Shown here: positions 1 to 23,168 of the stretch, in pieces | How positions within the stretch are numbered: the first letter of the stretch is position 1 | How the letters are laid out: each line of letters opens with the position of its first letter | Source: a virus | Reading direction: 5' to 3' (one strand) | IMG/VR virus record: IMGVR_UViG_3300001748_000030 | Coordinates: 1 to 23,786 of that record | DNA length: 23,786 nt | Position numbers and translations under genes: made by a program | The notes under the pieces: generated by a model | Database searches by the model: none | Seen by the model: the letters and a program-made list of their open reading frames with translations, nothing else | What the model was told of the DNA's origin: nothing

Positions 1-3000
1 GGAATATTCACACCATACTCAACAATACCTTCAGGGCTTGCTACAATCTTCTTGCCAATCACCTCAGGCATTGTAGCTTGTAGGAAATCATCAACTCCGT
101 CACTGTCTAGATAGTAACCATTTGTGCCACTAGCTAGGATAGGTCTTGCTGTGCTTGTTTCTTGGTATGCGTGGTTACCTGGGAGTTCTTGGACCCTTAC
201 ATTATCTATGATGGCTGATGCTGCTACATTATACGATGCGGCTACATACAAATCAGTCCCGTCTGCTACCCATATCCCACTAAGTCCTATTCCTGTCGTA
301 GTAAATTTAATTTCATTAGCAAGGGACGGCGTGCCTAAATAAACAGAAACAGTGTGAGATTTCTCAATAACATCTATAGTTACTTTATAAGTTTTTCCTA
401 CAGTTAGCTTACCAGATTGCCTCGGCGAATCTGTTATACTGGCGCCATTCCTATTTATTACCGCTTGACCGTTATCCCAAGTAAAACTTAGGGGGCTGTT
501 TGTAGTCCAACCACTTACATCAGTATCAAAAGTCCCATTGCTGACAACAGTATTCCCTAACTGCAAGCCTCTAGATTTGTCGAGGATTAGACCAACAGGT
601 TGCCCAACACCAGTTACCGGAATCGAGCCAACGTAATCCTCAAACATTGTATCAAAGTCGGAAGGATCATACCAAGCTCCCACATCTCCGCTAAAGAACA
701 GGGGAGCAATTGTGGAGTCTAGTTGGGCTTCTGCTGTTGGTGTCTTTGTGTTTACAGTCCAACCTCTATCGGTAAGTGCTCCGCTTGCTGCAACACCCCA
801 ATAGCTTGGTGGTTGCATGTTTGTGTAGCTCAGGGTTAGAGTTCCTGCACTTGTATTAGCGTTGTTGATACTTACAATTACATTGTCAACACTTTGAGTG
901 TTTAGTTTGGTTGCGTTAAACGTGTTTGAGAAGTTTACTGTGCCAGATGTATTATCGAACACTCCGGCTGGGAAGTGCTCAAGATTATTGCAATACTCCC
1001 AAGTTTGGCTTAAATTTGTTGCTGATCTACAATCAATTTGAGGGAAGCTAGAGAGCTGAGTGCAAGTATGCCAAGTTCTAAACAGATTAGTTACTTGGCT
1101 AGTGTTAATTAATGGAAAACTAGTAAGGTTATTACACCCAGCCCAAGTATACTGCATACTAGTTGCTTGGGTTGTATCAATCCAAGGGAAACTTGATAGG
1201 CTAATGCAGGAGTTCCAAGCCTGATCAATCGCAGTCACTGCACTTGTATTAATTACAGGGAAGCTAGATAGATTAATACAAGTTTCCCAAGCTCTCTGCA
1301 TATTAGTTACTTGACTAGTATCAATCCAAGGGAAGCTAGAAAGACTTCGACAATCTCTCCATGCGCGATTCAGATTGGTAGCTGCGCTAGTATTAATCTC
1401 AGGAAAGCTAGAAAGACTCTGACATCCATCCCAGGTTAGATAAAAATTAGTTGCTTTACTTGTATCAATCCAAGGAAAGCTAGAAAGATTTCTACAACCT
1501 CCCCAAGCGTAAGATATATTAGTTACTTGGCTTGTATCTATTGCAGGGAAACTAGAAAGATTGACACACCCAGCCCAGGAAGCATACATACCTACCACTT
1601 GGCTTGTATCAATCCATGGGAAGCTTGAAAGGCTAGTGCAGTTGTTCCAAGCTTGTTGCACAGTAGTGGCTGCGCTTGTATTGATTGCGGGGAAGCTAGA
1701 AAGACTAGTGCAACCCATCCATGTTTGTGTAAATTGAACAGTTTTACTTGTATCAATTAATGGGAAGCTTGAGAGGCTAGTGCAACCAGCCCAAGCAGCA
1801 AACGTGTATAAAACGTTACTTGTATCAATCAGTGGGAAGCTACTAAGACTGTAGCAATAACCCCAAGCATATTGTAAAGTAGTTGCAGCGCTTGTATTAA
1901 TAGATGGGAAACTCCTAAGATTAGGGCATTGATACCAAGCAGTAGACAGGTTAGTTACTTGACTAGTATCAATCAGTGGGAACTCTGTAATCCAGTCTGC
2001 ATTTCTCCAGTATTGGTAAAGATTAGTAACACCACTATAAGCACTTGCACCGTATGGGCCTGCGCCACGAGCAGCAAAGTATTGGTCAAGTGCTCCAACC
2101 TCAGGGGAGACCATTGGAGTATCTGTAATGATACCACCAACAAGTTCTCTAGCAAATGAGTAGGTCACACCTGTTGTATTCGTGCCTAGAGCATAAGTTC
2201 CTGAAGGAATTGCAACACCATATGCAACTGATCCTTCTTCTGTTGGGATGTATGCTGTTCCATTGAATCCTGATACTTCTACTAAGAGTCTGTCATCTAC
2301 TCCGTCAAAGTCTAGATGATAGTCTCCTGCTGAACCTTGTAGAACTGGTCTTGCTGTGCTTGTGCTTTGGTATGCGTGGTTTCCTGGGAGTTCTTTTACA
2401 GAGATGTTGTCAAACTCTGCTACTGTATTTTCAGGTGTCCCTACAACAAGTTGCACTTTGTATGAAGCACTTCCTAATGGAGCATAACCATAAGCTACAA
2501 GCTCTGTAAACTCACTAGATGTTACACCTTGGCCTTGACCAAACACAGTTCCTCCTTGAGTAAGGAGTAATATGTTTGCCGACCCTCCGCCAGAAACTAC
2601 GCGGCATCTACAAGTAACTTTATACCATCGCCCCCCACCTTCAGATAAAGCAAAGGTCTGTTCAACTCGTCCGGTAGATGAAGATCTTACTTGCTGTAAA
2701 ACCCCATTGTTCCACGACATTGTTCCGTTCGAAACATTTGTCCAACCACTTGTGTCTGTATCAAAATCCCCATTGAAAACAAGCTCCTCACCAAGCACCA
2801 ACCCTTGAGACTTGTCAAGCATCAATCCAACAGGTTGACCCGCAGCACTTACAGGAATCGTTCCAGCAGAATCCTGATACAAAGTCGTCAAATCATTCAC
2901 ATCATACCAAGCAGCATCTCCACCACCAAAGAAGATAGAAGATACAATCACATCCTCGCTTGGAGTCTTTGTGTTAACAGTCCAATATCTTGATTGGAGT

Positions 3001-5831
3001 CTGTGCTTGGCGTAAACACCTCCGACTCCTGGTGCTTGCATTGCTCCGAGGGACAGTTCTAATGTTCCGCTCGCTGTATTTGCATTATTGACACTTAGGA
3101 GGATATTGTCAACACTTTGAGTATTCAGTTTTGTGCTAATGAACGCAGTTGAGAAGTCTGTGGTTCCTGAAGTGTTATCAAATACACCTGATGGGAAGAC
3201 TTCTAGGCTTGTGCAGTTACTCCAAGTTATAGATAAATTAGTTGCTGATCTACAGTCAATTTGTGGGAAACTGCTTAAGCTGTCGCAATACTGCCAAGTT
3301 GCACCGAAATTAGTCACTTGACTAGTATCAATTGATGGGAAGTTTAATAGATTTATACCGTAAAACCAAGTTCTAATCATGGTAGTTACTTGGCTTGTGT
3401 CAATCCATGGGAAATCAGGGAGACTTGTGCAGCTAAACCAAGTATAGTCCATGGCCGTAACTGAGCTTGTATTAATTTGTGGGAAGTTAGTCAGGGAGTT
3501 ACATGAGTGCCAAGTTCCGTAAAGATTAGTTGCTTGACTTGTGTCGATTAGTGGGAAGCTAGAAAGACTATTGCAGTTATACCAAGTATTCTGAAAGGCG
3601 TAAGAGTCACTTAATTTACTTGTGTCAAGTAGCGGGAAGCTAGTTAGATTTTGACAGTTATACCAAGCAGCAGTCATTCGAGTCACTTGGCTTGTATCAA
3701 TTGGTGGGAAACTTGAAAGACTAATACATTCTCGCCAAGGACTATCCATATTAGTAACTTGGCTTGTATCAATCAGGGGGAAACTTAAAAGGTTTCTACA
3801 ATAATACCAAGCCAAATTAAGAGTAATAGCTTGGCTAGTATCAATCAGAGGGAAGTCCGTAATCCACTCAGCACCTCTCCAATAATAGTTAAAATTAGTA
3901 ACACCCTGATAAGCATTAGAACTTACAGCACTTGCACCACCCTCAATGAAATACTCGAATGCAGTTGAGATCTCCTCCTCTGACATTGAATTATTTCTTA
4001 CCAACATTCCAAGAAGATCGTCATTGAATGAGAAGGTTACGGAGGGACTGTTTGTTCCGATAGAGAATGTGCCTGAAGGAATTGAAACACCGTATGCGGC
4101 TGTTCCCAATACATCAGAAATAACTGCTGTTCCTCTTACCTGTCCTGGAACCTCTACTAGAAGTCTGTCATCTACTCCGTCAAAGTCTAGGTAGTATGAA
4201 CCATTTGTTTCTCTTAGTGTTGGTCTTGCTGTGCTTGTTGGTTGCTTGGCATGGAATCCATATACTTCCTTGAGTGAGATATTGTCGAAGGTGTTTGGGT
4301 AGACTGGAGGAAGTGGGAGTCCTGATACACCTGACTTGGTTCCAAGGTAGTATTCTAATGTTGTGATTTCTTCTGAGGTTAGGGTTCTGTTTACTCCGAT
4401 ATAACTGTAGATGCGTCCGTTTAATACCAAAGAAGTGCTTGGGGCTGAATGCCTACCACCTAAAGTTATCCCGTTCCAACCATGCGATCCAGTATTTGTT
4501 GTTGTTATTAAACTTCCGTCGCTTCTCAGGGTTGAGTTTGGAGAATTAAATTGCGTGAGAAGAACGTTTGGGTTAGTTGTGGCTGAGTATGCTGGAGGAA
4601 GAATTGCCCCAGAATACCATTTGATGTTAGCGCCTTCCACGTAGGCCACGTGCCTGTTTGTTCCATCTGCACTATCGAAGATGTTTTGAGTGCCAGCAGT
4701 TGAATTTAGCTTATAAGAAACAGAAATTGAATTGGGCTGTGCTTCAACAGAAGCAAACGTCGCCGTTTTCATCCAATCATCCACCCCATCAAAGTCCAGG
4801 TAGTAAAGACCATTAGACTCTTGAAGAACAGGTCTTGCAGTGCTTGTGGATTGGGTTGCGTGGTTTCCTAGGACCGCTTTGACAGAGATATTGTCAATGG
4901 CTGCTGTCGTGCTTGTCCCGACTGAAAAGAATATAAGGGATTGGTTAGCTGCAACTCCCGTGCAGGTATGCACTCCAACGGTGGAAAATACACCGTTTGC
5001 CGCACCGCTGCCCAAGCCAACCTTTATTGCGCCTTCAGAGATTGAGGTTATTTCAAACTGAACCGTGTAAACTTTGCCAATGTCCAGAAGTAGTGTTTTG
5101 TAGATCCCAGTATCAGGGACCACTCCTGGGTAGTTTGCAACTCCACCAGATATGGTTATGCCTGGGCCTTTTATCCACCAACTGTCCGTATCAAATGTCC
5201 CATTAGTCACCAGCTCAGGACCTAGCTCCAACCCCTTACTCTTATCAAGCATCAATCCAACGGGTTGACCTGCACCTGTGACGGGGATAGTGCCTGCTGA
5301 GTCCTCAAACAATGTGGTGAAATCAGAAGGATCATACCAAGCACCTTCCTCACCACTTGCGAATAGATCTGAAATAGCGTCGTCGAAAGATTGGGGATTG
5401 TTTAGAGTAACATAAGTAGTGGGACCAGGAGCTACGAAGTGCTTTCTCACCTTGTTTGAGCCAGCATCTACACTGATTGGTGTGATGTCGTCACTGCCTG
5501 AAGTTGTTCCGAGCTTCATGACAAGACCACTAGAACCTGCGTTAACATCGCCTTCAAGCAAGTAAAGTTTACCTGCAACGGATGAAGCGGCTGCTTGTGT
5601 TAGTTCTCCAGAAGATAAGACTAAACTATTTAAACTAACAGTGTAGAGGGAATTACCTGTATCAATCCAATACTGAGAGCTTGCCGAAAAGATTCCGTTT
5701 CTAAGTAACTCTGGGCCTTCGTCTTCGTCCTGAGCTTTATCAATAATAAAGCCTACAGGCTGACCTACCCCCGTAACAGGGATCAGCGCATCAGCATCTT
5801 GAAACATCTTTTGAAGCTCTATACTCTTCAT
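1..5831 (-). CDS. Giant modular tail adhesin with BspA-type leucine-rich repeats and LamG domain (3' end cut by window)
   Basis: The frame opens with ATG at 5831-5829 and stays open to position 1, giving at least 1943 codons without the C-terminus. I checked the frame directly at several points (near 4800, 3900, 2340 and 1) and did not verify every codon. An AGGA Shine-Dalgarno (complement of 5839-5842) lies 7 nt before the ATG. Layout: residues 1-160, an N-terminal region starting with a partial module head; about 164-345, the second head with a WYDPSDF linker and an NGTFDTD beta-sandwich; about 347-520, a LamG/ConA-like domain; 660-878, nine leucine-rich repeats; about 975-1165, the third head; 1284-1619, fourteen repeats; about 1718 onward, the fourth head. 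The repeats match the BspA (DUF285) family, known mainly from surface adhesins. Lying directly after the baseplate genes, it is probably the host-recognition fibre. No sugar-degrading active site is recognisable. Tail fibre is the likeliest role; a virion decoration protein is an alternative. Confidence 0.8.
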   Translation of the reverse strand, partial: MKSIELQKMFQDADALIPVTGVGQPVGFIIDKAQDEDEGPELLRNGIFSASSQYWIDTGNSLYTVSLNSLVLSSGELTQAAASSVAGKLYLLEGDVNAGSSGLVMKLGTTSGSDDITPISVDAGSNKVRKHFVAPGPTTYVTLNNPQSFDDAISDLFASGEEGAWYDPSDFTTLFEDSAGTIPVTGAGQPVGLMLDKSKGLELGPELVTNGTFDTDSWWIKGPGITISGGVANYPGVVPDTGIYKTLLLDIGKVYTVQFEITSISEGAIKVGLGSGAANGVFSTVGVHTCTGVAANQSLIFFSVGTSTTAAIDNISVKAVLGNHATQSTSTARPVLQESNGLYYLDFDGVDDWMKTATFASVEAQPNSISVSYKLNSTAGTQNIFDSADGTNRHVAYVEGANIKWYSGAILPPAYSATTNPNVLLTQFNSPNSTLRSDGSLITTTNTGSHGWNGITLGGRHSAPSTSLVLNGRIYSYIGVNRTLTSEEITTLEYYLGTKSGVSGLPLPPVYPNTFDNISLKEVYGFHAKQPTSTARPTLRETNGSYYLDFDGVDDRLLVEVPGQVRGTAVISDVLGTAAYGVSIPSGTFSIGTNSPSVTFSFNDDLLGMLVRNNSMSEEEISTAFEYFIEGGASAVSSNAYQGVTNFNYYWRGAEWITDFPLIDTSQAITLNLAWYYCRNLLSFPLIDTSQVTNMDSPWRECISLSSFPPIDTSQVTRMTAAWYNCQNLTSFPLLDTSKLSDSYAFQNTWYNCNSLSSFPLIDTSQATNLYGTWHSCNSLTNFPQINTSSVTAMDYTWFSCTSLPDFPWIDTSQVTTMIRTWFYGINLLNFPSIDTSQVTNFGATWQYCDSLSSFPQIDCRSATNLSITWSNCTSLEVFPSGVFDNTSGTTDFSTAFISTKLNTQSVDNILLSVNNANTASGTLELSLGAMQAPGVGGVYAKHRLQSRYWTVNTKTPSEDVIVSSIFFGGGDAAWYDVNDLTTLYQDSAGTIPVSAAGQPVGLMLDKSQGLVLGEELVFNGDFDTDTSGWTNVSNGTMSWNNGVLQQVRSSSTGRVEQTFALSEGGGRWYKVTCRCRVVSGGGSANILLLTQGGTVFGQGQGVTSSEFTELVAYGYAPLGSASYKVQLVVGTPENTVAEFDNISVKELPGNHAYQSTSTARPVLQGSAGDYHLDFDGVDDRLLVEVSGFNGTAYIPTEEGSVAYGVAIPSGTYALGTNTTGVTYSFARELVGGIITDTPMVSPEVGALDQYFAARGAGPYGASAYSGVTNLYQYWRNADWITEFPLIDTSQVTNLSTAWYQCPNLRSFPSINTSAATTLQYAWGYCYSLSSFPLIDTSNVLYTFAAWAGCTSLSSFPLIDTSKTVQFTQTWMGCTSLSSFPAINTSAATTVQQAWNNCTSLSSFPWIDTSQVVGMYASWAGCVNLSSFPAIDTSQVTNISYAWGGCRNLSSFPWIDTSKATNFYLTWDGCQSLSSFPEINTSAATNLNRAWRDCRSLSSFPWIDTSQVTNMQRAWETCINLSSFPVINTSAVTAIDQAWNSCISLSSFPWIDTTQATSMQYTWAGCNNLTSFPLINTSQVTNLFRTWHTCTQLSSFPQIDCRSATNLSQTWEYCNNLEHFPAGVFDNTSGTVNFSNTFNATKLNTQSVDNVIVSINNANTSAGTLTLSYTNMQPPSYWGVAASGALTDRGWTVNTKTPTAEAQLDSTIAPLFFSGDVGAWYDPSDFDTMFEDYVGSIPVTGVGQPVGLILDKSRGLQLGNTVVSNGTFDTDVSGWTTNSPLSFTWDNGQAVINRNGASITDSPRQSGKLTVGKTYKVTIDVIEKSHTVSVYLGTPSLANEIKFTTTGIGLSGIWVADGTDLYVAASYNVAASAIIDNVRVQELPGNHAYQETSTARPILASGTNGYYLDSDGVDDFLQATMPEVIGKKIVASPEGIVEYGVNI
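60..690 (-). repeat. Adhesin module head, copy 4
   Basis: This is the last visible copy: AWYDPSDF, then IPVTGVGQPVGLILDKS (585-622), NGTFDTDVSGW, and HAYQETSTARP...YYLDSDGVDDFL. It ends with EGIVEYGV at the window edge, matching EGSVAYGV and AAYGVSIPSG, which precede the repeat arrays in the other modules. Confidence 0.8.
975..1982 (-). repeat. Array B: 14 BspA-type leucine-rich repeats, 72 bp each
   Basis: Fourteen consecutive coding units of exactly 72 bp (24 residues) fill residues 1284-1619 of the adhesin. The FP dipeptides at the two ends of the array are 1008 nt apart, which is 14 times 72. Each unit follows F-P-x-I-[DN]-T-S-x-x-T, seven variable residues, W-x-x-C, then a SLSS-like end. 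The Trp and Cys recur in every unit. The last unit carries a variant IDCRS sequence, also seen at the same place in array A, followed by a capping segment FPAGVFDNTSGT. The pattern is that of the BspA/DUF285 family. Confidence 0.92.
2270..2925 (-). repeat. Adhesin module head, copy 3
   Basis: This is a second full copy of the linker plus beta-sandwich head: AWYDVNDL, then IPVSAAGQPVGLMLDKS (2821-2858), NGDFDTDTSGW, and HAYQSTSTARP...HLDFDGVDDRL. It leads straight into repeat array B. Parts are nearly identical to copy 2 even at DNA level: a stretch near 2287-2318 closely matches one near 4160-4192. Confidence 0.8.
3198..3854 (-). repeat. Array A: 9 BspA-type leucine-rich repeats
   Basis: Nine units fill residues 660-878. 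The total is 657 nt, which is nine 72-bp units plus 9 nt, because one unit (LLDTSKLSDSYAFQNTW) carries three extra residues. One unit (IRTWFYGINLLN) has Gly where the others have the conserved Cys. The array ends with the same variant IDCRS unit and a cap FPSGVFDNTSGT, closely matching array B. Confidence 0.9.
4800..5345 (-). repeat. Adhesin module head, copy 2
   Basis: This segment codes for a WYDPSDF linker, the signature IPVTGAGQPVGLMLDKS (5251-5288), a beta-sandwich region starting ELVTNGTFDTD, and the closing motif HATQSTSTARP...YYLDFDGVDD. It recurs as copies 3 and 4. The first half also appears at the N-terminus of the protein (5751-5783). It is followed by the LamG-like domain, unlike the other copies. 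The beta-sandwich resembles carbohydrate-binding modules, but that is inference from pattern only. Confidence 0.8.
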
Positions 5832-5852: not shown

Positions 5853-8800
5853 TTATCCAAACCAGAATCCAAAGTTTAATCCTTCTAATTCTCCCTCAAG
5901 AGGCACCGTCGGGACTTCAGAGCCTGGCGTTGTTGCTTCTTGGATTCCTTCTCCTGGATCATCTGAATCAAATCTAATGGAAACATACTGACATGTATTA
6001 TTATCTATTTCTTCAACAAACCAATTGGGATTAAATCTATAGCTTAATCTACTACCACCACTGGGTAAATTAATATAAGAACTCTTAGTTGAACTTCTTC
6101 CTAAGGGGCCTTCCGTTCTATCTTTTCCTGCAATCTGATTAAAGAATCTAAAAATAGTCCTGATATCAGCAGGAGAAAGATCTAATTTTTTGTAACTACA
6201 CAGAGGATGAGTCATTCTATGAAGAAGATCTGGGTCTAGTTCTATTCTAGTGTAATCCCACAATACCTCATTTCTTAATGAAAGTTCATCTAGTAGAATA
6301 AACTTATCAGAGTTATCAATTGTTGGAAGCATGAAGACTTCAACATAATAAGTTTGATCTAACCTATGAACCTGTCCTTGATGTTTATAATAAGCGTCAG
6401 GGACTATTAGTTTCTTGCACTTATTATAGGTATTAAATTTAAGTTCTTTTGTTGAGAAGTAATTTTCAGTAAACTGAGTTATGGCTCTATCTACACTACC
6501 TGAAACAGGTGCTCTACATGGTCTTAGTAAAGAAGAAACATCTCCAATATCAGGATCATCAAACTGAATGATATGAGCTAACTCTGAAAGAATTTTTTCT
6601 TTTGTTACATCTTGATAGTTTAGTAACTCCCATTCACCTGAATTATTGAAGTGCCAAGAATGTTGATTATTTTCAGCTTTTGTATGGATCCAAATTCCTA
6701 AACGAGAATCAGTTAAAAGAGATCCATCATCTAAAGCTGCTAAACCTTTGATACTTAGTCTAAACTCATGATCAGGGGTTAGGAATGAGTTATCTCTATG
6801 ATCTCCATAAGCTTCAGATAAATTAGAACCTTTAATAGTAAATCGCAGTCTAGGGAGGCCATCAATAGCCTTCAGCTTAAGGAGAGGATTATTGAATGCG
6901 TATGAGTCTCTGGCAGAGGTTATATCATATAGAGTAAATTCATTTAGTCTGGATGCTCTTGCTGTATGAATTATCTCAACGTTAGACATGATACCCGAGT
7001 TTATTAACTCTATTGTTTCACTAAATTCGCTAATTGAAGAAGCGATTAAAGATGATGGATGAGTATAAACAAAAGTATCATACGCTGAAATAGAGGACGC
7101 ATCTCCAGAGAAATATAGAGATTGTAGAGTTAATCTTGTAGTATCTTGAAGATTTCTTGCATAGAGATCATAATTACCGCGCTCATCTAGCTTACTGTTA
7201 TGTAAAATACTTCCATAACAATGAGTTAATATATTAGCCTTATTTAGATCATCACTGTATCCTGGGAGGGGGTGATAGTTAAATGCTGAGGTGTAAATAT
7301 TAAATAGTCTATGAATTTTTTGTCCAAATGTGTAGCTTCTATATTCATCTAAAGAGCTAAGTAATGTATTACAAGCGAGGAGAGAGTTTGCGATAGAACC
7401 AGAAACATTTTTCCAAAACAAGCTGCTGGAATATAGCTCATAATTATCTTCTACAATTTTCTGTGCTTCTCTTTTAATTTTTTCTTCTTCAATTCTGTAG
7501 ATTAGATACATGAATGGGTCTAGATCTCCACGATCTAAATACATAGTTGATCCATCTTCATCATTAGCTAATGAATTATAACCCCGTGTCTTTAAAGTAG
7601 CTGAAGTGTAGTATCCATAATAAAAACTATCGTTTGTTGTATTGCATCTTTCTAATATTGGATCAATACTTGATATAAGAGAAGAGCACCCACCGTCAGC
7701 AAACGCAGACACAAAACTCATAGATGATGGGATAAGGCCTAATGTGATGAGATTTGCGTCTGATGTAGACGTGAAGCCTCGGATTGCGCTATCTAAGAAT
7801 ACAGGTGGATTAAAGCCTGTTCTGTCGTAATAGCCATTAATATTTAAAGATGATCTATAGTTTCTTCGTCTGAATGTATTTCTTGGCTGGCTTGTATACA
7901 AACCAGAGGTGTAGGGTCCATAAGTAAGAGAAGTATACTTGTCTCGTGCTAACTGTTCTGTAAATTGAGAAGCTCCTCCAAGGAAATCTACTCCTCTATC
8001 TTCGTAGTTTGATATAACTAGGCTACGGCTTGCGTTCTCCAAGTTATCTACTGAATCAAAGAATAGCAGGGAGAATAAGGTCCCGTAAGCAGTATCGTAG
8101 GTGCTAGAAGCAGAAGCTACAACTTTAAAGTTAGGTATCGAGTGTGCGGGAGAGAATCTCTTAGCTACTTTTGCAGCAATCAAAATCACTTGCTTAGAAT
8201 CTGACTCGTAACTTACTTTAGTAAAATCAAAATCATTTGCCCTGAATGCGAGGTAGAAGTGAGATGATTTACCGTTCCATAAACTTAAATACTTCTCCCT
8301 CTCATCTCCAATGATCTCCAACATAGTGTCGAAGTTTGGAGGTAGGGACATACCAGAAGCAAACATCAACCAAGAATTCTCTTCTCGAATCTCGTCTTGA
8401 GAGTCCAATGTATTCTCAAGGATGTAACTACCAACCTTATCTGCAAAGCCCTCTTCGACCCCAAAGCAAACCAGTTGATCTACGAGGCTGATTACAAAGT
8501 CAGGAGTTATACCACAGTTTAGGTAATAGGGTATTTCTTCAAATGGTGGGATAGGATAATTGCGGCCTCGATAGTTAAACTCAAACAGATTTGAGTTTCT
8601 AGGGAATGGCCTGCCACCAAGTCTGAATAAGTCTGGGTAATCCTCGAAAAGGTTGAGCAGAATTCTATCAACAGCAAGTCTAATGTTAGTCTCGAAATTT
8701 TGCCTGTCGTATTTGAAGATGTTTAAATCAGAAGCAGTTCTCTGGGTCCAAGTATCAAATCCTTTGAATAGTTTTGATTCAGTAGCCAAAGCATACATAA

Positions 8801-9923
8801 TTAAGAATGGTATATATGACTCCCATAACTCAATAATGTCTGACGATATCTCTACAACTCCCTCAGTAAATACTGAGTTGATGGCCGTCTGAATACTTTG
8901 TTTGGTTCCTGTCTTTTTGTATAGATCTACTGCATTATAAAGCTGTAGTCTCCACCTATCTGGATCTGAGCCTAGTAAATCCCAACCAATCAAATAAGCT
9001 AACTCTTGCAGATACTCATCTGGGCAGTCTTGGAGGTCATATAGGACTGCTAGTTTATCTACGTCGTTCTGTGCATCTGCAAAAGAGAACGAGAAAGCTT
9101 TTAATAGTCTCCAGAACGGTCCGTTAGATAGTTGCTCTTTCTCGTATTGGCCTAGCTGCTCGAAGATCGACAGTGAATCGAGTAACTTTGTATCAAATTT
9201 ACTAAAGTATTCGTTCGAATAGATAACTTCGTTTATCGTCTTTAGTTTTTCAAGTTGTTGTGTTCCACTCGTGTAAGTAGTCGTGCCTCTTCTAAACTCA
9301 CTTGGAATGTAACCGGAAAAAGATTCATTCTTCCACAGATACTCCGTTAGGCAGTTAATGCCATCAACTAAAGTTAATTCCTCGCCCTTATAGAGTTTAG
9401 TTACAAAGTAATCTGATACAATGGAAGATGGTTGAGTTGATTGGGTATTACCACTAGCTAAGAAATAAAACCAACCTAAAGTCTGGGTAAGGTCGTCTTG
9501 CTCAAAAATTTCTGCGAAACCATTTGTTTGGATTTTTGGTATTAAATCAGTATCAACATACTCTTTAAATGAGGCAGAGGTAGAAAAGTTTGAGAACGAT
9601 TTGCTATCTTTTATTAATATATTACGAAAAAATTCGTAAGGCTTAACATTAGTATAATTAGTTTGCTTTACGAAAAATGGAGCAATTGCTGATAAACTAT
9701 TAATCGCAGGAAAGAGCGTCCCAGCGGAAACCTCAATAATAGAAGAGATATTATTAGCTATATTGATATGAGATTCTACTACATTATCTATTAAGCTATC
9801 AACTTTACCAAAATTGGCTATGTCATCTTCCAGATATAATCTAGGTATTAGCAGTTCGATAACTTCCGAGAAGTTTCTCTTACTATAAGTTTTTCTCGGG
9901 TTATTAAACTTTCTGCTGCTCAT
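5853..9923 (-). CDS. Large baseplate wedge protein with P2 gpI / T4 gp7-like domain
   Basis: The protein has 1356 aa. Residues about 270-355 (from FWRLLKAFSFSFADAQND through WDLLGSDPDRWRLQLYNA to KKTGTKQSIQTAI) carry the pattern of phage tail protein I (P2 gpI), including the K-x-G-T-x-x-[AS]-I stretch. T4 gp7 has a matching core domain and is about 1030 aa, so size and place after gp25 and gp6 suggest the gp7 role: the long arm of the wedge that pairs with two gp6 copies and carries fibres. The remaining roughly 1000 residues have no motif I recognise. The start codon overlaps the stop of the gp6-like gene by one base (TAATG). Codon use changes inside the gene: the N-terminal coding half (8.0-9.9 kb) uses more G+C-ending codons than the C-terminal half. 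The domain call is firm; the exact T4 equivalence is inferred. Confidence 0.68.
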   Translation of the reverse strand: MSSRKFNNPRKTYSKRNFSEVIELLIPRLYLEDDIANFGKVDSLIDNVVESHINIANNISSIIEVSAGTLFPAINSLSAIAPFFVKQTNYTNVKPYEFFRNILIKDSKSFSNFSTSASFKEYVDTDLIPKIQTNGFAEIFEQDDLTQTLGWFYFLASGNTQSTQPSSIVSDYFVTKLYKGEELTLVDGINCLTEYLWKNESFSGYIPSEFRRGTTTYTSGTQQLEKLKTINEVIYSNEYFSKFDTKLLDSLSIFEQLGQYEKEQLSNGPFWRLLKAFSFSFADAQNDVDKLAVLYDLQDCPDEYLQELAYLIGWDLLGSDPDRWRLQLYNAVDLYKKTGTKQSIQTAINSVFTEGVVEISSDIIELWESYIPFLIMYALATESKLFKGFDTWTQRTASDLNIFKYDRQNFETNIRLAVDRILLNLFEDYPDLFRLGGRPFPRNSNLFEFNYRGRNYPIPPFEEIPYYLNCGITPDFVISLVDQLVCFGVEEGFADKVGSYILENTLDSQDEIREENSWLMFASGMSLPPNFDTMLEIIGDEREKYLSLWNGKSSHFYLAFRANDFDFTKVSYESDSKQVILIAAKVAKRFSPAHSIPNFKVVASASSTYDTAYGTLFSLLFFDSVDNLENASRSLVISNYEDRGVDFLGGASQFTEQLARDKYTSLTYGPYTSGLYTSQPRNTFRRRNYRSSLNINGYYDRTGFNPPVFLDSAIRGFTSTSDANLITLGLIPSSMSFVSAFADGGCSSLISSIDPILERCNTTNDSFYYGYYTSATLKTRGYNSLANDEDGSTMYLDRGDLDPFMYLIYRIEEEKIKREAQKIVEDNYELYSSSLFWKNVSGSIANSLLACNTLLSSLDEYRSYTFGQKIHRLFNIYTSAFNYHPLPGYSDDLNKANILTHCYGSILHNSKLDERGNYDLYARNLQDTTRLTLQSLYFSGDASSISAYDTFVYTHPSSLIASSISEFSETIELINSGIMSNVEIIHTARASRLNEFTLYDITSARDSYAFNNPLLKLKAIDGLPRLRFTIKGSNLSEAYGDHRDNSFLTPDHEFRLSIKGLAALDDGSLLTDSRLGIWIHTKAENNQHSWHFNNSGEWELLNYQDVTKEKILSELAHIIQFDDPDIGDVSSLLRPCRAPVSGSVDRAITQFTENYFSTKELKFNTYNKCKKLIVPDAYYKHQGQVHRLDQTYYVEVFMLPTIDNSDKFILLDELSLRNEVLWDYTRIELDPDLLHRMTHPLCSYKKLDLSPADIRTIFRFFNQIAGKDRTEGPLGRSSTKSSYINLPSGGSRLSYRFNPNWFVEEIDNNTCQYVSIRFDSDDPGEGIQEATTPGSEVPTVPLEGELEGLNFGFWFG

Positions 9924-11536
9924 TATACTCTGGTTACGTTAATGGTTAGGTTATTGAGTTGAATAATTTCATTAAAATCAACTTTCACTACCTCTGGGTA
10001 GTTATCTACAGTAGCGAAGATAACATAGTCATTTTGGAAAATTGTTCTTGCTAAGTCTTGAGGGTTAAATTCTTGGCCGAACTCTCTATTACCAATATTC
10101 ATGTAATTAACAATTATATCTCTAATTTCTGTTTTAATAATTTCTTCCTGTTCTCTAATATCTCTATCAATTCTAGCAGTGATGACTAAATCTAGAGTTC
10201 TTATCAAACCATCTACTACTATCACCTCATCCGTTAACATTTTTTTTGGTTCGATCGCCTCAAGTAGTTGCTTTTTAAATGTTGGGGTAGCTTTTCTAAG
10301 TTGCGTGTTACTAGCTCTCTCTAACACATAAATATCAACTATGTTCGCAGATGAAAACGCACGCCTTACTGATGCGGTAGCTTTTCCTACTGAGCCGTAA
10401 TTAGAGATGAAGCTATTAGTAAAGCTTGCATAATCTTGTAGAGTTACAAGTCGATCCTGCCTTCTGAACGTGAGACCTGCATACTTCTTAGCATTTTCTA
10501 CTGTCTCGACATCGGACCCTCCTGTAGCTAAAGAGGTATTTTCGAGAATAGCATTAGCTGTTGTTAAACCCACACGAGCCGAAATTGGGGCGTTTATCAC
10601 TTCAGGTGCGATGTTGCCTCGGGTGCCTCCACCAACTCTGTAAGTAACGACATAGGTGTCTGTTGCATTAGGAGATATTCCTACCCTATTATCACCAAAA
10701 ACTAAAATTCCGTTAAAATCGTCGTCACTAACTATTTGGAATGTTTTATCTGACGGACCAGATGCAAAATAAATATTATCCACTTGACGATAGGTGCCAC
10801 TAGTGGTTGTTTGTCCTGAAACAAATACCTGAACAGATCCTTCTACAATAGGACCTACGTCTAAATCAATTGTCTTAATTCCGGGGCCTCCCCCGAATAG
10901 ACCAGTCTTTCTAACGAAAGAACCTTCCAAAAGAACTAAATTATCATGAACTTTAGCAACGCCTTTATCTCCACCATCACTTGCATCACTTGCTTCTATC
11001 TCTTGGAGAATAATTGAAGTGTCCTTATTTGGCAGATCAACAAGACCATTAGTAACTTTATACAATGTGTATGTAAGAGGTCTGGAGTCTTCTGGGGAAG
11101 TTATGGTTACGGTTCTTTGTGAGAACGGAATTTCTATAAATTGTTGTTCACCGGAGTATGGGCTCACGCTAAAGGTTAGTCTAGCATTTGCTGCTGCGCT
11201 GATAGGTCCTTTCAACCTAACGCCCACAAGCTCTAGCAGCTTTTTAACATTATTTCTTATTTTAGACGTTCTTAGGAAGTTTTCGTTTGCTAAAAAGTCT
11301 GCTTTCATGCTGGTCGTGGCTCCGACATAAGCAACTAAGTCGATGAGCATGACTCCTAGATCAGACTCTACGAAATTGTTATAGTCTAATGGATAAACAG
11401 CTTTGATGTAGTTAACTAAGTTAGCTCGCAGGGTATCGAAGTCTGTCCCAGCAAAATCTATTAAATTAGATTTTTTGGTGGAGCTAATATCAATTAACTT
11501 TAAGAAGTCTGAGTTTACTGTTCCGCTAAATGTCAT
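9923..11536 (-). CDS. Baseplate wedge protein, gp6 / Baseplate J-like
   Basis: The protein has 537 aa. Residues 55-105 hold the hallmark of the family: FVESDLGVMLIDLVAY, then FLANENFLRTSKIRNNVKKLLELVG. Residues around 345-500 (GGSDVETVENAKKYAG, RLVTLQDYASF) match the central part of Baseplate_J/gp6 proteins. In T4, two gp6 copies and one gp7 form the wedge trimer, and gp6 forms the inner baseplate ring that triggers sheath contraction. T4 gp6 is somewhat longer (about 660 aa). The start overlaps the stop of the gp25 gene in an ATGA, so translation is probably coupled. The very next gene encodes the predicted gp7/gpI partner, supporting the assignment. Confidence 0.87.
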   Translation of the reverse strand: MTFSGTVNSDFLKLIDISSTKKSNLIDFAGTDFDTLRANLVNYIKAVYPLDYNNFVESDLGVMLIDLVAYVGATTSMKADFLANENFLRTSKIRNNVKKLLELVGVRLKGPISAAANARLTFSVSPYSGEQQFIEIPFSQRTVTITSPEDSRPLTYTLYKVTNGLVDLPNKDTSIILQEIEASDASDGGDKGVAKVHDNLVLLEGSFVRKTGLFGGGPGIKTIDLDVGPIVEGSVQVFVSGQTTTSGTYRQVDNIYFASGPSDKTFQIVSDDDFNGILVFGDNRVGISPNATDTYVVTYRVGGGTRGNIAPEVINAPISARVGLTTANAILENTSLATGGSDVETVENAKKYAGLTFRRQDRLVTLQDYASFTNSFISNYGSVGKATASVRRAFSSANIVDIYVLERASNTQLRKATPTFKKQLLEAIEPKKMLTDEVIVVDGLIRTLDLVITARIDRDIREQEEIIKTEIRDIIVNYMNIGNREFGQEFNPQDLARTIFQNDYVIFATVDNYPEVVKVDFNEIIQLNNLTINVTRV

Positions 11537-11997
11537 AATCTAACACCCACTTCAAAAGTAGATTGAGCATCTCCTCGCAGTTGGCACCACAAAGAAATTT
11601 TAACTCCAGGAATACTCAAATTACCTGTTTCTTCGAAAGAAGAAATTTTTATTTTTAGTATTTTTACATTAGGCAGATACTTCGTAATAGATCTGACAAT
11701 CCTCTCTCTGATCTGCTCTTTTAAATCCCCATCTGCTTGCTCAAATAAAAGTGATTTAAGAGAAGCTCCATAATCAGGAGTCATTAGTCTCTCGCCACGT
11801 TCAGTTTTTAATATTTGAATAAGGCAACTTTTAGTTGCTTCTACATTAGTGCATTTAGAAAAATAGCCTCTACCATCTCTCGCGATTGGATATTTAAATC
11901 CTATGAGATTCGTATACACCTTATTAGTTGTAGAGTTCCTAACTTCGGAGTTAGAAACTAAACCTCTAATCTCTGTTGTTTCTCCTATATTTTTCAT
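11533..11997 (-). CDS. Baseplate wedge protein gp25-like
   Basis: The protein has 154 aa, the usual size for the GPW/gp25 family (T4 gp25 is 132 aa). Residues 61-80 (QILKTERGERLMTPDYGASL) carry the conserved signature in which a Glu-Arg pair precedes a turn and the D-Y-G motif. It is followed by LKSLLFE and by an amphipathic helix EQIRERIVRSITKYLP leading into a beta strand. gp25 joins the sheath to the inner wedge. The family is sometimes labelled lysozyme-like, but no catalytic role is implied here. Start and stop codons overlap those of both neighbours by ATGA. No clear Shine-Dalgarno sequence is visible, so coupling to the preceding gene is likely. Confidence 0.87.
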   Translation of the reverse strand: MKNIGETTEIRGLVSNSEVRNSTTNKVYTNLIGFKYPIARDGRGYFSKCTNVEATKSCLIQILKTERGERLMTPDYGASLKSLLFEQADGDLKEQIRERIVRSITKYLPNVKILKIKISSFEETGNLSIPGVKISLWCQLRGDAQSTFEVGVRL

Positions 11998-14633
11998 AGT
12001 GCAATATTTTTATATAGTTTACTTTGGATCGAATAGTTAAATTCAACTTCGGTGCTTGACAAAGGTTTTCTATAGAATTTAGTGCTACCTAGATAACCTC
12101 TAAGACCACTAGTAACCCCATTAAATTCTCCGCCCATAAAATTACCGTTCAGAGCCATACCGTCTGTATATCCTCCACCAAGAATCCAAGGGGTAAAGTA
12201 TTGATTCAGGGTTGGTCCATACTTGAGGGACTCTGGTGCGCTCTGGCCTACTGAGCTAGTATTATACTTGAAGGAATTGCTAAATACAATAGAGGGAAGT
12301 CTTGGTGGGGCATACGCCCTAGTCCCAAAAACTTCGCTAATTGAAGATGTGGCTAAAACTTCTTTATCCAGATACAAAATTATCTCATTCTTCTCATAAT
12401 CTAGAGTAAAAGCTAAATCACAGAATTGCTGAGAAACCTTCCATAATGAGTTACCTGACTCTGTGGTCGAGGAGGCTGGGACAAACATCCCATACCAACC
12501 ATCTGCGTAACTACAGTCCCTTGTGATGAATCCAATAGAAGTTTCATCATAGCTAATTGTTGGTGCGATTAGGAAACCTGCGGAGGATGCGTCATTAGTG
12601 TCAGCAGCGTTTGATGGAAGGGTTTCGTTGGTCCACCGAATATCTCTAGTAAAGCCTACTATTAATCCTCTCGTATACTCAGATAAGTAACGAGCTTGAA
12701 TATTATTAATATTTTCTGTTCTTATCGTAGCGTTTGGGTGTGTTCCTGTATTTTCACAAGATAAAATTAATCTGTATAGAGAGGAAGCATCATTATTAAA
12801 CCAACCTGAGTTAGCTGAAAGATCAGGAACGTAAGCCCAAGTTTCGAAACTAGCTCCATTCAAGTCATATAGCCAGTCTTGATATTCTGATGTATCAGGT
12901 AATTTAACATAGCTACCTAATCCCGAGATAGAGGTTCCGTTATTCCTAGTGATTCCTTCTAGATAAACAGAAGCAAGGCCATACTTGAAGATATCCTCTT
13001 GGGAGCCACCGACTAACTGAGCGTTATTGTAATCATCCGTGCTCACACAGTTCAAGACTGTAAAGTCTGTCCCAGACGGATCTGATATTTTGCTGTTTAA
13101 GAAGTTGTAAATTGCAAATAGATTAGATGTGATCACTACATCACTCATACTTAGTTCTGCTGCACTAGCCTCAGAAACACCAGAAGAATCTGTGAGGATA
13201 GCTCCGATTCCGATCTCTGGGACTGACAAGAACTCCAGTTGAGAGTCTGCGCCTTCCCAAGCTTTTGACACAGCGAAGGTTGGGTTCAAGGGTAAGACAA
13301 TGCCCGATACTTCATCTTGACGTAAAACTAAACCTCTTTGCCTATCCAGAGAGAGTGATATGTTGCAGTCCTGTAAGTAAGAGAAGTCATTGATCGGGAC
13401 TTTCCCTGGGGCGAAGCTTATATTCTTACCGAAAACTTCGTTGACCTTAGTTGCGATTTCAATCTGCTTCTTTCTTCTTCGAATCTTATCTTCATGGTAA
13501 GCGACTTCGCTGATAAGAGATTGTTTGAAGTTATCAACAATGGCTTGTGAAGAACCTCCAGAGATAAGTTGATTAATGTAGGAAGATAAGTCCAGAACTC
13601 TTTTTTCTTTATTGCCGTGAAGTAATCGTAAGAAGTGATCTTTCTCATAGTGATCCTTTAGTTGTATACTATCATCGACCTTATTTACATCAAATATACT
13701 GTTTAACCACTTGTTGAAGCTTTCACTTGAAACTTGATCTCCCTTACCTCCAAGGCTAGGTGCATGATCAAACTTCCAACGATCTGCTGCCTCGATTAAA
13801 GTGTCCTTCGATCTAAGGAAGGTCAGCACGGGCTCTAAGCCATCATCTGTTTGTGAATCATAGTATAGACCATCGACACTCAATAGGTATTGTCCTTCTA
13901 CACTTATTGGAGGTCCAAAGACTAGACGAATAATGTCCTCATCTCCTGGTGCTGGCGGCATTACGGTAAATCCGAAGCCTGAAGGGTCGGACGCTACCAT
14001 CGGTTCTAAGAATGGGTTTTCAGCTCTTCTTTGGAATTCATCATTTAGTTTTCCTTGTAGAGAGTTTATTGCTTGGATAGCTTTCAGAATTTCTTGCATT
14101 TGTGCCCTATATCGGGCGAACTCTGCTTCAGCAAGCTGTCTGTATCTATCAGAGTAATCAGGAGGTAGGTTACTGGCAAAGGGTCCTCCTGGGCCGTTTA
14201 GGAACGAGTTAAGGCATTCGATAATCTCTTCTATTTGGGCAATTGCCGTAGTGACATTAGTGTATAGCTGTGCTCCGGCAGCAGCGGCTGCTGAAATAGC
14301 TCCTACCATTCCTCCGATTCCTGCTAAAAGTCCATTTAGGCTTGCTAGGGAAGAATCCGAAAAAAATCTAAGAAATCCATTTTCCGTATCAAAACTTAGG
14401 ATGCCTAGTTTCTCATTAACATAGTTTAATAGTTCAGCAAAAAATTCGTTAGCTTTAGCTGCGGCTTCGTCCGACAACTCGCTAATGAATACTAGCAAAG
14501 GTGATGGCAATAAGGCTAACATCTGAGAAGTCAGATTAAGTAAGCACGAAGGCATACCGAAGGTGGTTCCTAATGCACCTAAAGTATCCCCTGAGCCTAA
14601 TGATGTAGCTAGTTGTCTGAAGTCGAATGCCAT
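11994..14633 (-). CDS. Structural protein with C-terminal concanavalin A/LamG-like domain
   Basis: The protein has 879 aa. The N-terminal third is hydrophobic and helix-rich, with an alanine run GAISAAAAAGAQL near residue 120 and a Gly-rich stretch GLLAGIGGMVGA just before it. A charged helix (QSLISEVAYHEDKIRRRKKQIEIATK) lies near residue 375-400. The last 300 residues have the look of a LamG/ConA-like jelly roll: a FETWAYVPD strand, LIVGFTRDIRW, a DYEKNEIILYLDKE strand pair, and a final GYLGSTKFYRKPLSSTEVEFNY, which is the typical closing strand of such domains. No T4 counterpart is recognised. Its place between spike and gp25 argues for a baseplate-associated part that may touch the cell surface. 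The gap to the upstream spike gene is 25 nt, without a strong Shine-Dalgarno sequence. Confidence 0.65.
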   Translation of the reverse strand: MAFDFRQLATSLGSGDTLGALGTTFGMPSCLLNLTSQMLALLPSPLLVFISELSDEAAAKANEFFAELLNYVNEKLGILSFDTENGFLRFFSDSSLASLNGLLAGIGGMVGAISAAAAAGAQLYTNVTTAIAQIEEIIECLNSFLNGPGGPFASNLPPDYSDRYRQLAEAEFARYRAQMQEILKAIQAINSLQGKLNDEFQRRAENPFLEPMVASDPSGFGFTVMPPAPGDEDIIRLVFGPPISVEGQYLLSVDGLYYDSQTDDGLEPVLTFLRSKDTLIEAADRWKFDHAPSLGGKGDQVSSESFNKWLNSIFDVNKVDDSIQLKDHYEKDHFLRLLHGNKEKRVLDLSSYINQLISGGSSQAIVDNFKQSLISEVAYHEDKIRRRKKQIEIATKVNEVFGKNISFAPGKVPINDFSYLQDCNISLSLDRQRGLVLRQDEVSGIVLPLNPTFAVSKAWEGADSQLEFLSVPEIGIGAILTDSSGVSEASAAELSMSDVVITSNLFAIYNFLNSKISDPSGTDFTVLNCVSTDDYNNAQLVGGSQEDIFKYGLASVYLEGITRNNGTSISGLGSYVKLPDTSEYQDWLYDLNGASFETWAYVPDLSANSGWFNNDASSLYRLILSCENTGTHPNATIRTENINNIQARYLSEYTRGLIVGFTRDIRWTNETLPSNAADTNDASSAGFLIAPTISYDETSIGFITRDCSYADGWYGMFVPASSTTESGNSLWKVSQQFCDLAFTLDYEKNEIILYLDKEVLATSSISEVFGTRAYAPPRLPSIVFSNSFKYNTSSVGQSAPESLKYGPTLNQYFTPWILGGGYTDGMALNGNFMGGEFNGVTSGLRGYLGSTKFYRKPLSSTEVEFNYSIQSKLYKNIAL

Positions 14634-14658: not shown

Positions 14659-16068
14659 TTAGCTAGGAACTATTGATTTCTCGTAATCTGTTAATATGAC
14701 GGGAGGAGTTTCTGCTTTTCTAGCTTCAGGGAGGGGGAGCCTAGTAGAACTACTATAGATAGGTCTTGGGACCTGTTCGTTAACAAAAACTGCTCTACCA
14801 TCAATAATCGTATTTCCTAAAGGTCCTCCCATATCTAATTGACAACTAAATGGGTTTTTTGGTATTGGACTAACTGCCGCTCTGGTAGTATTATGAAGAA
14901 TCTCCTCATAAGTATTTATCACAAAGTCCGGTGAATTCCCTAGAGGTCTCGAAAGTAAACCAACTCCAGGGAAGAACGGTTCTGGATTCGTTGGGTAGTT
15001 AGTCCCTGCGGTAGCTTTAAATACCTCTCCTGCCTGTATATTGACGTTACCTCTAGACTCAATGTTTACTTCTGAGTCTCCTCGAAGGTTTAGCACGTCA
15101 CCCTTAATATAGATCTTTCCAGTTAGGGACTTCAAGATTATGGATCCGTCTGAGCTAATTTGAACAATTGCGCCTTGCTCGAATGGTAATGTAGGAGCAG
15201 AACCGCGAGCTTTAATCATAACCTTTCCTCTATAGTTTTCCTTGTAAAGTAAGTTTTGATTATCGTAAATGCCAAATGGAGAAAGGATCTTACTTAAAAA
15301 TCCATGAGTCTTTCCAGCAGTAATATTAACGTCTCGCCACTCACTCTCAATATTAACATTTCCGTATGGAACAAAAAGAGGAGTTCTAAAGGTGCTCATG
15401 TCTGAAGCGAACCTAGACATCAAACTGTTGAAACCAATTGACCTGTTTCTTATATTAAGATCTTTTCCATCCTCAATTGTTAAGTTGAGAGAAGATCTTC
15501 TAGATATCAAGGACATAGGTCCTGAAGATTTTATGTCTATGGATCGAGCTGCTGGGGGAGGGGGGAATGCAGCAAACTGAGGTGCTGTCTTACCTCTAAT
15601 TAGTATTCCATCACCTTTCTCATTTTCTAGCCTTACCTCACTACTCGTGGGGCTATCTAGAAAAACTAGCTTCTTCCCAAGGCTGCTCTTTAATTGAACC
15701 TTGTAATTAAAGCTCTTCTTATATGCGTGAGAGAATATTAGTTCGTTCCCTATTGGATCTCGAATAACAAATTGTTGAGGAACATCTCGTTTTTCATATA
15801 GTTCTTTTGGGACCTTAGATTCTCCGACAAAAGGTCCAGAATGGAGAACTGATAACAGATACCAAGTAGAAGACTCATCTGGCTGTATGATGAGAACTTT
15901 CTGTTGGGGGGAGGGTATAGCGAAAAGACCTGCGCCTTTTTTGTTCCCAGTAGCTCCCCACGGACTAGCATAGTGAACCTCGTAGATCTCTGATTCTCTC
16001 ACTGCGATAAACTTACCCGTAGAGTCAGAGTCAATATTACTTTCGACTGTTACTTCTAGAACTTTCAT
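14659..16068 (-). CDS. Baseplate central spike protein, gp5/gpV/VgrG-like, without lysozyme domain
   Basis: The protein has 469 aa. Residues 1-95 fit the OB-fold seen in gp5, gpV and VgrG proteins (EIYEVHYASPWG, GLFAIPSPQQKVLIIQ, WYLLSVLHSGP). Residues about 293-346 are short alternating strands with G, D and N at turns (GSIILKSLTGKIYIKGDVL, SEVNIESRGNVNIQAGE), the pattern of the trimeric beta-helix needle that pierces the outer membrane. A proline run FPPPPAAR sits near residue 168. T4 gp5 has a lysozyme domain between these parts; nothing resembling a catalytic lysozyme segment is seen here, so it is closer to P2 gpV or VgrG in make-up. It overlaps the hub gene stop in an ATGA, which fits spike and hub acting together. 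Confidence 0.77.
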   Translation of the reverse strand: MKVLEVTVESNIDSDSTGKFIAVRESEIYEVHYASPWGATGNKKGAGLFAIPSPQQKVLIIQPDESSTWYLLSVLHSGPFVGESKVPKELYEKRDVPQQFVIRDPIGNELIFSHAYKKSFNYKVQLKSSLGKKLVFLDSPTSSEVRLENEKGDGILIRGKTAPQFAAFPPPPAARSIDIKSSGPMSLISRRSSLNLTIEDGKDLNIRNRSIGFNSLMSRFASDMSTFRTPLFVPYGNVNIESEWRDVNITAGKTHGFLSKILSPFGIYDNQNLLYKENYRGKVMIKARGSAPTLPFEQGAIVQISSDGSIILKSLTGKIYIKGDVLNLRGDSEVNIESRGNVNIQAGEVFKATAGTNYPTNPEPFFPGVGLLSRPLGNSPDFVINTYEEILHNTTRAAVSPIPKNPFSCQLDMGGPLGNTIIDGRAVFVNEQVPRPIYSSSTRLPLPEARKAETPPVILTDYEKSIVPS

Positions 16069-18671: not shown

Positions 18672-18945
18672 TTGGGACTACTACCCTAGATCCTACTCTA
18701 AAATCTTCAAACACATCAAACTTCAATGAAGTTAGACATAAATACCAATAAGCTCTGGTGTCCCCGTAAAAAACATCAGCAATAAGGTCGGGGCGGTTTT
18801 CATACTCTGGTGGGACTGCTCCTGAATCTGAACCTTTGGTGTCTAAATTTTCGATAAAATTGTCAGCCTTTGAATTGCCGACAATTGTTCGAATAACTTT
18901 ACCTTTATGATTATAATCATTATAGCCTAAATTATAGTGACTCAT
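18664..18945 (-). CDS. Baseplate wedge protein gp53-like
   Basis: The protein has 93 aa. The core, residues 47-91, reads EYENRPDLIADVFYGDTRAYW and then LCLTSLKFDVFEDFRVGSRVVVP. This is the LysM-like fold pattern of gp53-type proteins, in which RPDL, a Y-G-x-x-x-x-[YW]-W stretch, a D-x-F step and a closing [IV]-P occur at fixed spacing. T4 gp53 is about twice as long, so this is a minimal form. A GGAG Shine-Dalgarno sequence lies about 9 nt before the start, and the start overlaps the stop of the upstream gene in an ATGA. In T4, gp53 clamps neighbouring wedges together in the inner ring. Confidence 0.77.
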   Translation of the reverse strand: MSHYNLGYNDYNHKGKVIRTIVGNSKADNFIENLDTKGSDSGAVPPEYENRPDLIADVFYGDTRAYWYLCLTSLKFDVFEDFRVGSRVVVPND

Positions 18946-22112: not shown

Positions 22113-22394
22113 ATGTCTAGTTATGATATTAAGATTGATTTACTTGAATTCTATGACTTAATGGAGTATACATTAAGTTTTAAGTTTAGGGAAAAGTGGA
22201 AAGATTTATTCTCAGAAAGAATGATAAAGTTATTTCAATTAAAACTTTTACAGAGTTTTAAATCTGGCAAGGTCTTAAAAAGAACTGCTTTAATGAACTA
22301 CCTTATTAATAAAGGCAAATACAGAAAAGAAGTAATTGAAGATTTTTTTGGGATGATTGATCTAGAATTATATAGACCATTTATTTCTTTTTAG
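22113..22394 (+). CDS. Hypothetical small orphan protein (93 aa)
   Basis: The protein has 93 aa and I do not recognise the family. The translation looks like a real folded protein: almost all helix, with alternating hydrophobic and charged residues (DLLEFYDLMEYTLSFKFREKW, LFQLKLLQSFKSGKVLKRT) and a final FFGMIDLELYRPF. Codon use matches the AT-rich phage genes around it. An in-frame stop lies 27 nt before the ATG and no Shine-Dalgarno is visible, so the start is uncertain. It runs against both neighbours and overlaps the 3' end of the nuclease gene by 14 nt tail to tail. In T4 several small assembly factors (gp26, gp28, gp51) lie among hub genes, so a chaperone role is possible but speculative. 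If it is not a gene, a 353-nt gap would remain. Confidence 0.55.
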   Translation: MSSYDIKIDLLEFYDLMEYTLSFKFREKWKDLFSERMIKLFQLKLLQSFKSGKVLKRTALMNYLINKGKYRKEVIEDFFGMIDLELYRPFISF

Positions 22395-23157: not shown

Positions 23158-23168
23158 ATGATTTCTCC
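23146..23168. promoter_or_regulatory. Interlocked divergent start sites (CATATG)
   Basis: The nuclease ATG (complement of 23155-23157) and the primase ATG (23158-23160) abut to form one CATATG. The plus-strand Shine-Dalgarno AAGGAAGG (23146-23153) lies within the first nuclease codons. The minus-strand GGAGAA (complement of 23163-23168) lies within the first primase codons. No non-coding bases remain, so any promoters must lie inside the opposing genes. Confidence 0.85.

Follow-up and report, generated by a model that had tools for sequence, protein, structure and literature searches.

A putative phage tail fibre with tandem BspA-type leucine-rich repeat tips

Immunity and bacterial adhesion both make wide use of leucine-rich repeat (LRR) solenoids as a scaffold for recognition. 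Bacterial surface proteins of the BspA/DUF285 type carry tandem LRRs similar in length to those considered here, and Listeria internalin InlJ (3bz5) is an LRR solenoid with one Cys per repeat, forming a cysteine ladder. BspA-type LRR proteins have already been annotated in phages as well. The cultured Nonlabens phages P12024S and P12024L encode a gp10 described as 'similar to putative tail fiber', which has at its C-terminus the same LRR and C-cap as our sequence; proteins of the Synechococcus phages S-SKS1 (353 aa) and S-CBWM1 (gp104, 336 aa, 'putative tail protein') have the same repeat and cap, at 43-47% identity; tail protein I of Klebsiella phage ST16-OXA48phi5.4, which takes the place of gpI in the baseplate, bears a BspA-type LRR, and gp103 of Sphingomonas phage PAU contains 16 DUF285 copies. 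ORF 287 of the Vibrio jumbo phage vB_VhaM_pir03 has been annotated as a BspA family LRR surface protein (PMC7765460), an annotation that comes with no described function, locus or tail role. In the open-access literature, to which our searches extended (subscription papers lying outside it), no paper on LRR phage tail fibres was found, nor any characterised phage receptor-binding protein built on an LRR solenoid.

The gene described here strings several such tips in one chain. The window that was analysed is an entire IMG/VR record of 23,786 nt, for which no nucleotide-level relatives were found in the phage collection. On its minus strand, a frame of 1943 codons (3-5831) stays open without interruption and exits the contig at the contig start; since the window is the whole record, the C-terminus of the protein is absent. 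It was originally predicted that a single protein of at least 1943 residues would be encoded directly after baseplate genes, and both parts of that prediction were borne out. Preceding the fibre gene on the same strand we recognized genes for a gp25-like baseplate wedge protein (11533-11997; Pfam PF04965, 1.3e-10), a gp6-like baseplate wedge protein (9923-11536; phrog_219, 4.1e-37) and a gpI-like baseplate protein of 1356 aa (5853-9923), which is conserved in relatives and matches Tail_P2_I (PF09684) at 1.3e-4, with 22.3 bits against a cut-off of 20.6. Only 21 nt separate the gpI-like stop from the ATG of the fibre gene, and a Shine-Dalgarno-like AGGA lies ahead of this ATG. By eye, no obvious secretion or wall-anchor signal was seen in the fibre, whose N-terminus opens directly in a head motif, and an NCBIfam search of the protein gave no match. 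The gene thus lies at a baseplate locus, as is expected of a tail fibre, and the order gp25-gp6-gpI-fibre recurs in two relatives, L034 and L058. We consider it very probable that the gene encodes the receptor-binding tail fibre of a contractile-tailed phage, composed of tandem adhesin units with LRR tips, which would be located in the virion and would bind receptors in a multivalent way.

The module map of the protein is as follows (all coordinates on the minus strand). A short head motif containing GQPVG occurs four times, at aa 23, 188, 998 and 1743. Unit A (aa 1-160; 5352-5831) consists of a degenerate N-terminal head and a region resembling carbohydrate-binding modules (CBM), and is 38.7% identical to aa 4-135 of the L058 protein and 40% to that of L034; it gave no confident structure model, and its conserved N-terminus is a candidate for baseplate attachment. 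Then come head motif 2 (aa 161-204; 5220-5351; WYDPSDF..GQPVGLMLDKS; head HMM E 5e-41), CBM-like beta-sandwich 2 (aa 205-322; 4866-5219), a LamG-like domain (aa 326-505; 4317-4856) and linker domain 1 (aa 528-640; 3912-4250), which precedes the first LRR array, is 77% identical to L058 and has counterparts in L102 and L108. LRR array 1 (aa 660-878; 3198-3854) has 9 repeats, with a tandem repeat at the DNA level at 3681-3854, and is followed by C-cap 1 (aa 879-962; 2946-3197; FDNTSG..SVDNIL..WTVN), detected with a cap HMM. The next unit, unit C, comprises head motif 3 (aa 966-1015; 2787-2936; head HMM E 1e-38), CBM-like beta-sandwich 3 (aa 1015-1149; 2385-2789), linker domain 2 (aa 1158-1265; 2037-2360), which is beta-rich in the model and homologous to linker 1, LRR array 2 (aa 1284-1619; 975-1982) with 14 repeats of 24 aa, and C-cap 2 (aa 1620-1704; 720-974), found with the cap HMM and modelled as a helical/beta cap with pLDDT mostly 81-95. 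Unit D (aa 1705-1943; 3-719), identified with the head and CBM HMMs, contains head 4, a CBM-like region and the start of a linker. The end of unit D scores as an LRR-type linker (z 4.2-4.8, compared with 2.0 or less for LamG starts), and a third LRR array is therefore predicted past the contig end. A LamG-type third unit at the cut end was discarded because of these scores, though the fibre of relative L002 does end in LamG.

Set against the described systems, the fibre differs from BspA/DUF285 surface proteins in its phage tail locus, its 24-residue repeat with W and C, its CBM-like heads and its phage-type C-cap. Unlike the window protein, gp10 of P12024S/L has one short array as its sole tip, another N-terminal part and no tandem units, and the S-SKS1 and S-CBWM1 proteins are short combinations of a PKD-like part and LRRs, with neither head nor CBM modules. 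ST16-OXA48phi5.4 is a P2-like phage in which the LRR is fused to gpI itself and a Big_2 domain takes the place of the CBM-like heads. InlJ is a bacterial surface protein of a different LRR class, and the other phage relatives do not share the Cys.

The two BspA/DUF285-type LRR arrays of the original prediction stood up on several lines of evidence, with 9 and 14 repeats counted in them. The consensus repeat is FPxIDTSQVTNLxxTWxxCxxLSS and nearly all repeats are exactly 24 aa long, the exception being one repeat of 27 aa in array 1. In 31 repeats from the window and L058, F1, P2, W16 and L22 are invariant and Cys19 is present in 30 (in the window, in 21 of the 22 regular repeats), with positions 3, 11, 13, 14, 17, 18 and 20 varying freely. 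Comparing the repeats of the window with those of L058, 52 of 72 preset variable positions (8 and 12 included) differ, versus 27 of 120 elsewhere. In the modelled strand, position 12 is hydrophobic and points inward, with positions 11 and 13 on either side of it. No Pfam DUF285 match was obtained for the window protein, and its LRR_5 match (E 6.6e-6, 26.5 bits) falls just below the cut-off of 27.7 bits; the relatives in S-CBWM1, PAU and the Klebsiella phage pass the DUF285 cut-off. Its sequence matches in the PDB are LRR proteins, namely ROQ1 (listed as NADase), the BspA-like entries 4fs7 and 4gt6, repebodies and lamprey variable lymphocyte receptors, and tblastn found bacterial plasmid proteins annotated as BspA family (1e-26; Enterococcus and Ruminococcus).

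Unit C (aa 966-1715) was modelled with AlphaFold as a single chain together with 19 relatives, giving a mean pLDDT of 77; most residues of the LRR and cap scored 84-95. As modelled, array 2 is confidently an LRR solenoid with the tandem-LRR fold: VIA-align compared it with the Leptospira LRR protein LIC11098 (4u08) at Z 20.9, with a plant NLR entry of the RPP1/ROQ1 type (7crb) at Z 20.1, with InlJ at Z 17.3 and with the BspA-like surface protein 4gt6 at Z 15.5. In a viral structure library, its nearest entries come from uncultured Caudovirales and bear the names 'Bacterial surface protein 26-residue repeat' or 'BspA family leucine-rich repeat surface protein'; next to them stands the S-SKS1 protein, which matches the window model by fold.

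On the fibre models a Foldseek search was run alongside VIA-align. For the CBM4/16/22-like beta-sandwiches a jelly-roll fold was recognized: beta-sandwich 3 aligns with the porphyran-binding CBM 8xmz at Z 16.1 and rmsd 2.1 over 126 residues and with the CBM16 structure 2zey at Z 14.5, and beta-sandwich 2 (pLDDT 60-84) aligns with CBM16 at Z 12.1-12.3 and rmsd 2.5. The repeated beta-sandwich heads that had been anticipated are consistent with this result, the head motif being present in four copies and the sandwiches being CBM4/16-like by modelled fold. Apart from the CBM-like part of unit B, the model of aa 1-530 is poor (mean pLDDT 49), so that the LamG-like domain is backed only by relatives and by its all-beta pattern ending in a helix. 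No LamG profile matches the window protein, in which the modelled region has a pLDDT of about 50, and 3 of 13 aligned relatives match Laminin_G_3 (best 3.1e-6). The LamG domain expected in the window fibre is plausible, and likely only through these relatives.

Scanning with gp6 gave 141 relatives, of which 80 were kept. They share with the window a gene for a protein of 879 aa in the window, gp25, gp6 and gpI. Sequence beyond gpI was available in 39 of them, and a head/LRR fibre comes next only in L034 and L058; in the other 37 a different gene follows, which in many encodes about 340 aa. The record of L002 starts at an LRR cap end and continues with a head-CBM-LamG unit, a stop, and genes for 349, 202 and 1176 aa. 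These three genes are 45%, 64-67% and 47-49% identical to genes of L024 and L026, and they are the genes found after gpI in other members of the lineage. From these patterns in L034 and L058 compared with the 37 others, and from the 3' end of the L002 fibre, we conclude that the fibre gene is an optional insertion, placed after gpI and before the conserved gene that otherwise follows.

The L058 fibre is encoded at the same locus and is 57% identical to the window protein over 884 aa; its array 1 also has nine repeats and is 61% identical to LRR1. This comparison bears on whether an assembler might have joined unrelated repeat genes, which could be imagined for a metagenomic contig, all the more as the window and L058 both break inside head modules. 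Yet L058 comes from another metagenome, and at this moderate identity its modules still follow one another in the window's order within a single frame; no frame break was found in the window either, and pN/pS between the two is 0.45 for the fibre (0.29-0.64 by module), which indicates purifying selection. An assembly artefact is thus largely refuted and is hardly credible. The L058 gene contains in addition, between units A and B, an insert that resembles a SASA-type carbohydrate esterase (L058:15734-19732; GQSN motif, aa 128-387), at E 9e-4, below the Pfam cut-off. On this ground the chain could be read as a depolymerase fibre, mainly an enzyme scaffold whose LRR and CBM modules hold the substrate, but the window fibre lacks the insert, neither Pfam nor NCBIfam gave an enzyme match for it, and we regard this reading as very improbable.

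The distribution of the LRR tip was followed by scanning IMG/VR with an alignment of the LRR cap, which gave 152 relatives and, after removal of near-duplicates, 57 non-redundant complete proteins. In 49 of the 57 the cap lies at most 7 aa from the protein end, and in 54 at most 35 aa, so that the LRR cap is normally the end domain of the fibre. This result is relevant to another explanation, in which arrays and beta-sandwiches form a rigid rod that extends the fibre, and the missing C-terminal domain does the binding. The arrays are internal in the window fibre and the L002 fibre closes with a LamG-like tip as its last unit, as a spacer would allow; against it, most complete relatives have LRR plus cap as their C-terminal end, variation in the repeats falls on outward positions and spares the core, and sister phages differ precisely in the LRR. 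A mere spacer is accordingly unlikely, and we retain the reading of the arrays as binding tips.

Other phages have complete tail proteins with just one head-CBM-linker-LRR-cap unit, in one case directly behind a lambda-J-like hub. L102 has two adjacent unit genes (525 and 735 aa), which come shortly after those for the tape measure protein and for this hub (phrog_31, 4e-82); the one unit protein of L108 (538 aa) is encoded a short way after a gene of the head-tail adaptor/portal type; and L215, an IMG isolate record by the form of its identifier, has a 446-aa LRR protein three genes after a gpJ-type baseplate protein. Two capped arrays were found in four other proteins (L231, L232, L250 and L253). 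The idea that this fibre design is without precedent in phages was therefore not upheld, since many phage contigs encode a single head-CBM-LRR unit and LRR tail proteins exist in cultured phages. Judging from the sequences, the LRR tip is nothing unusual in phage proteins that await characterisation and the tandem arrangement is rare, so that the unusual, apparently new feature here is that two (a third is predicted) units are strung in one chain.

The LRR-cap proteins of L188, L196 and L192 adjoin portal or head-morphogenesis genes, and part of the family may consequently decorate capsids. One could extend this to the window protein, as a decoration of capsid or tail that gives general adhesion to surfaces or mucus-like glycans and does not decide host range, a role that CBM-like and LamG-like modules would suit. 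The window gene, L058, L102 and L215, however, are at baseplate or tail-tip loci, and the annotation of P12024S/L gp10 also points to a tail fibre; general decoration seems to us a shade less probable than the spacer. When genome contigs were scanned with a single protein, no cellular homologue came up, and the LRR-cap alignment gave one match in the genome collection, L258:2623-3666; it lies in a Euryarchaeota MAG, on a contig of 9.4 kb that is possibly a binned virus contig.

Closely related phages allowed us to compare tips on a common background. P12024S and P12024L have the same isolation host, and most blocks in which their genomes align show 98-99% identity. In gp10, aa 1-240 are identical in DNA; identity falls to 68% in the LRR, where one 23-aa repeat is missing, and is 94% in the cap. 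The LRR part has a pS of 0.49; because synonymous sites diverge too, the differences are attributed to exchange with another allele by recombination, and positive selection as their source was ruled out on the same ground. In the metagenomic contigs L200, L204 and L211, one protein has 338, 361 and 407 aa, with almost only 1, 2 or 4 internal repeats differing and 98-99.5% identity outside these differences, although in metagenomic contigs such changes of repeat number might have arisen during assembly. Among relatives, both the sister phages and the near-identical phages therefore have a variable tip on a conserved stem. That near-identical phages differ in LRR repeat number suggests that the array is probably a quickly changing host-recognition device, and such variation is the pattern expected of a receptor-recognition domain under changing hosts, with binding still putative.

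These observations can be assembled in a working model of the receptor-binding fibre. Unit A, which three phages conserve, would join the fibre to the baseplate, and each unit would present, on a short head motif and a CBM4/16-like beta-sandwich, a tip of one of two kinds: a LamG-like domain, or a linker with a BspA-type LRR solenoid that ends in its C-cap. By analogy of fold, the CBM-like modules would bind surface glycans weakly and repeatedly, and, from the position and variation of the tips, specific contacts would be made by the LRR and LamG-like tips. As each chain holds a pair of LRR tips, to which another is predicted to be added, besides its LamG-like tip, several glycan or protein sites might be contacted at once. 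Contact might be made through a face of the solenoid and not through a trimeric tip, as was first proposed. The LRR array would evolve by gain and loss of whole 23-24-residue repeats and by allele exchange, the heads and caps remaining constant, and changes between these constant parts would shift receptor specificity. More speculatively, and with a chance that we put below even, phage LRR tips might resemble variable lymphocyte receptors, in that whole LRR modules gained, lost and exchanged between constant caps would retune specificity, with several tips per fibre binding several receptors in some phages. If this were true, it would be a route of host-range diversification apart from diversity-generating retroelements, fibre-gene inversion and depolymerase swapping. 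The comparisons suggest a widespread phage tip domain, also present in cultured phages; if confirmed, it would add one more fold to the receptor-binding repertoire and give names to PHROG 9915, 22899 and 34853, whose function is so far unassigned. The interest lies more in the LRR-tip family and its repeat-number changes than in the window gene alone.

Some further features of the window and its relatives should be noted. The Tail_P2_I match is confined to aa 281-367 of the gpI-like protein, which in L024, L026 and L033 has about 500 aa inserted after approximately aa 720. The 879-aa protein (11994-14633, minus strand) has a marginal FliS-like match (3.3e-4, below the cut-off) and a C-terminus that looks LamG-like by eye; its gene lies beside gp25 in relatives too, where it encodes 1230-1268 aa in several. 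Two tail-operon genes on the minus strand (16065-18671, 868 aa, and 18942-19985, 347 aa) have no PHROG match. At the other contig end, an exonuclease (phrog_69; 22381-23157, minus strand) and a DNA primase (phrog_47; 23158-23784, plus strand) are encoded divergently.
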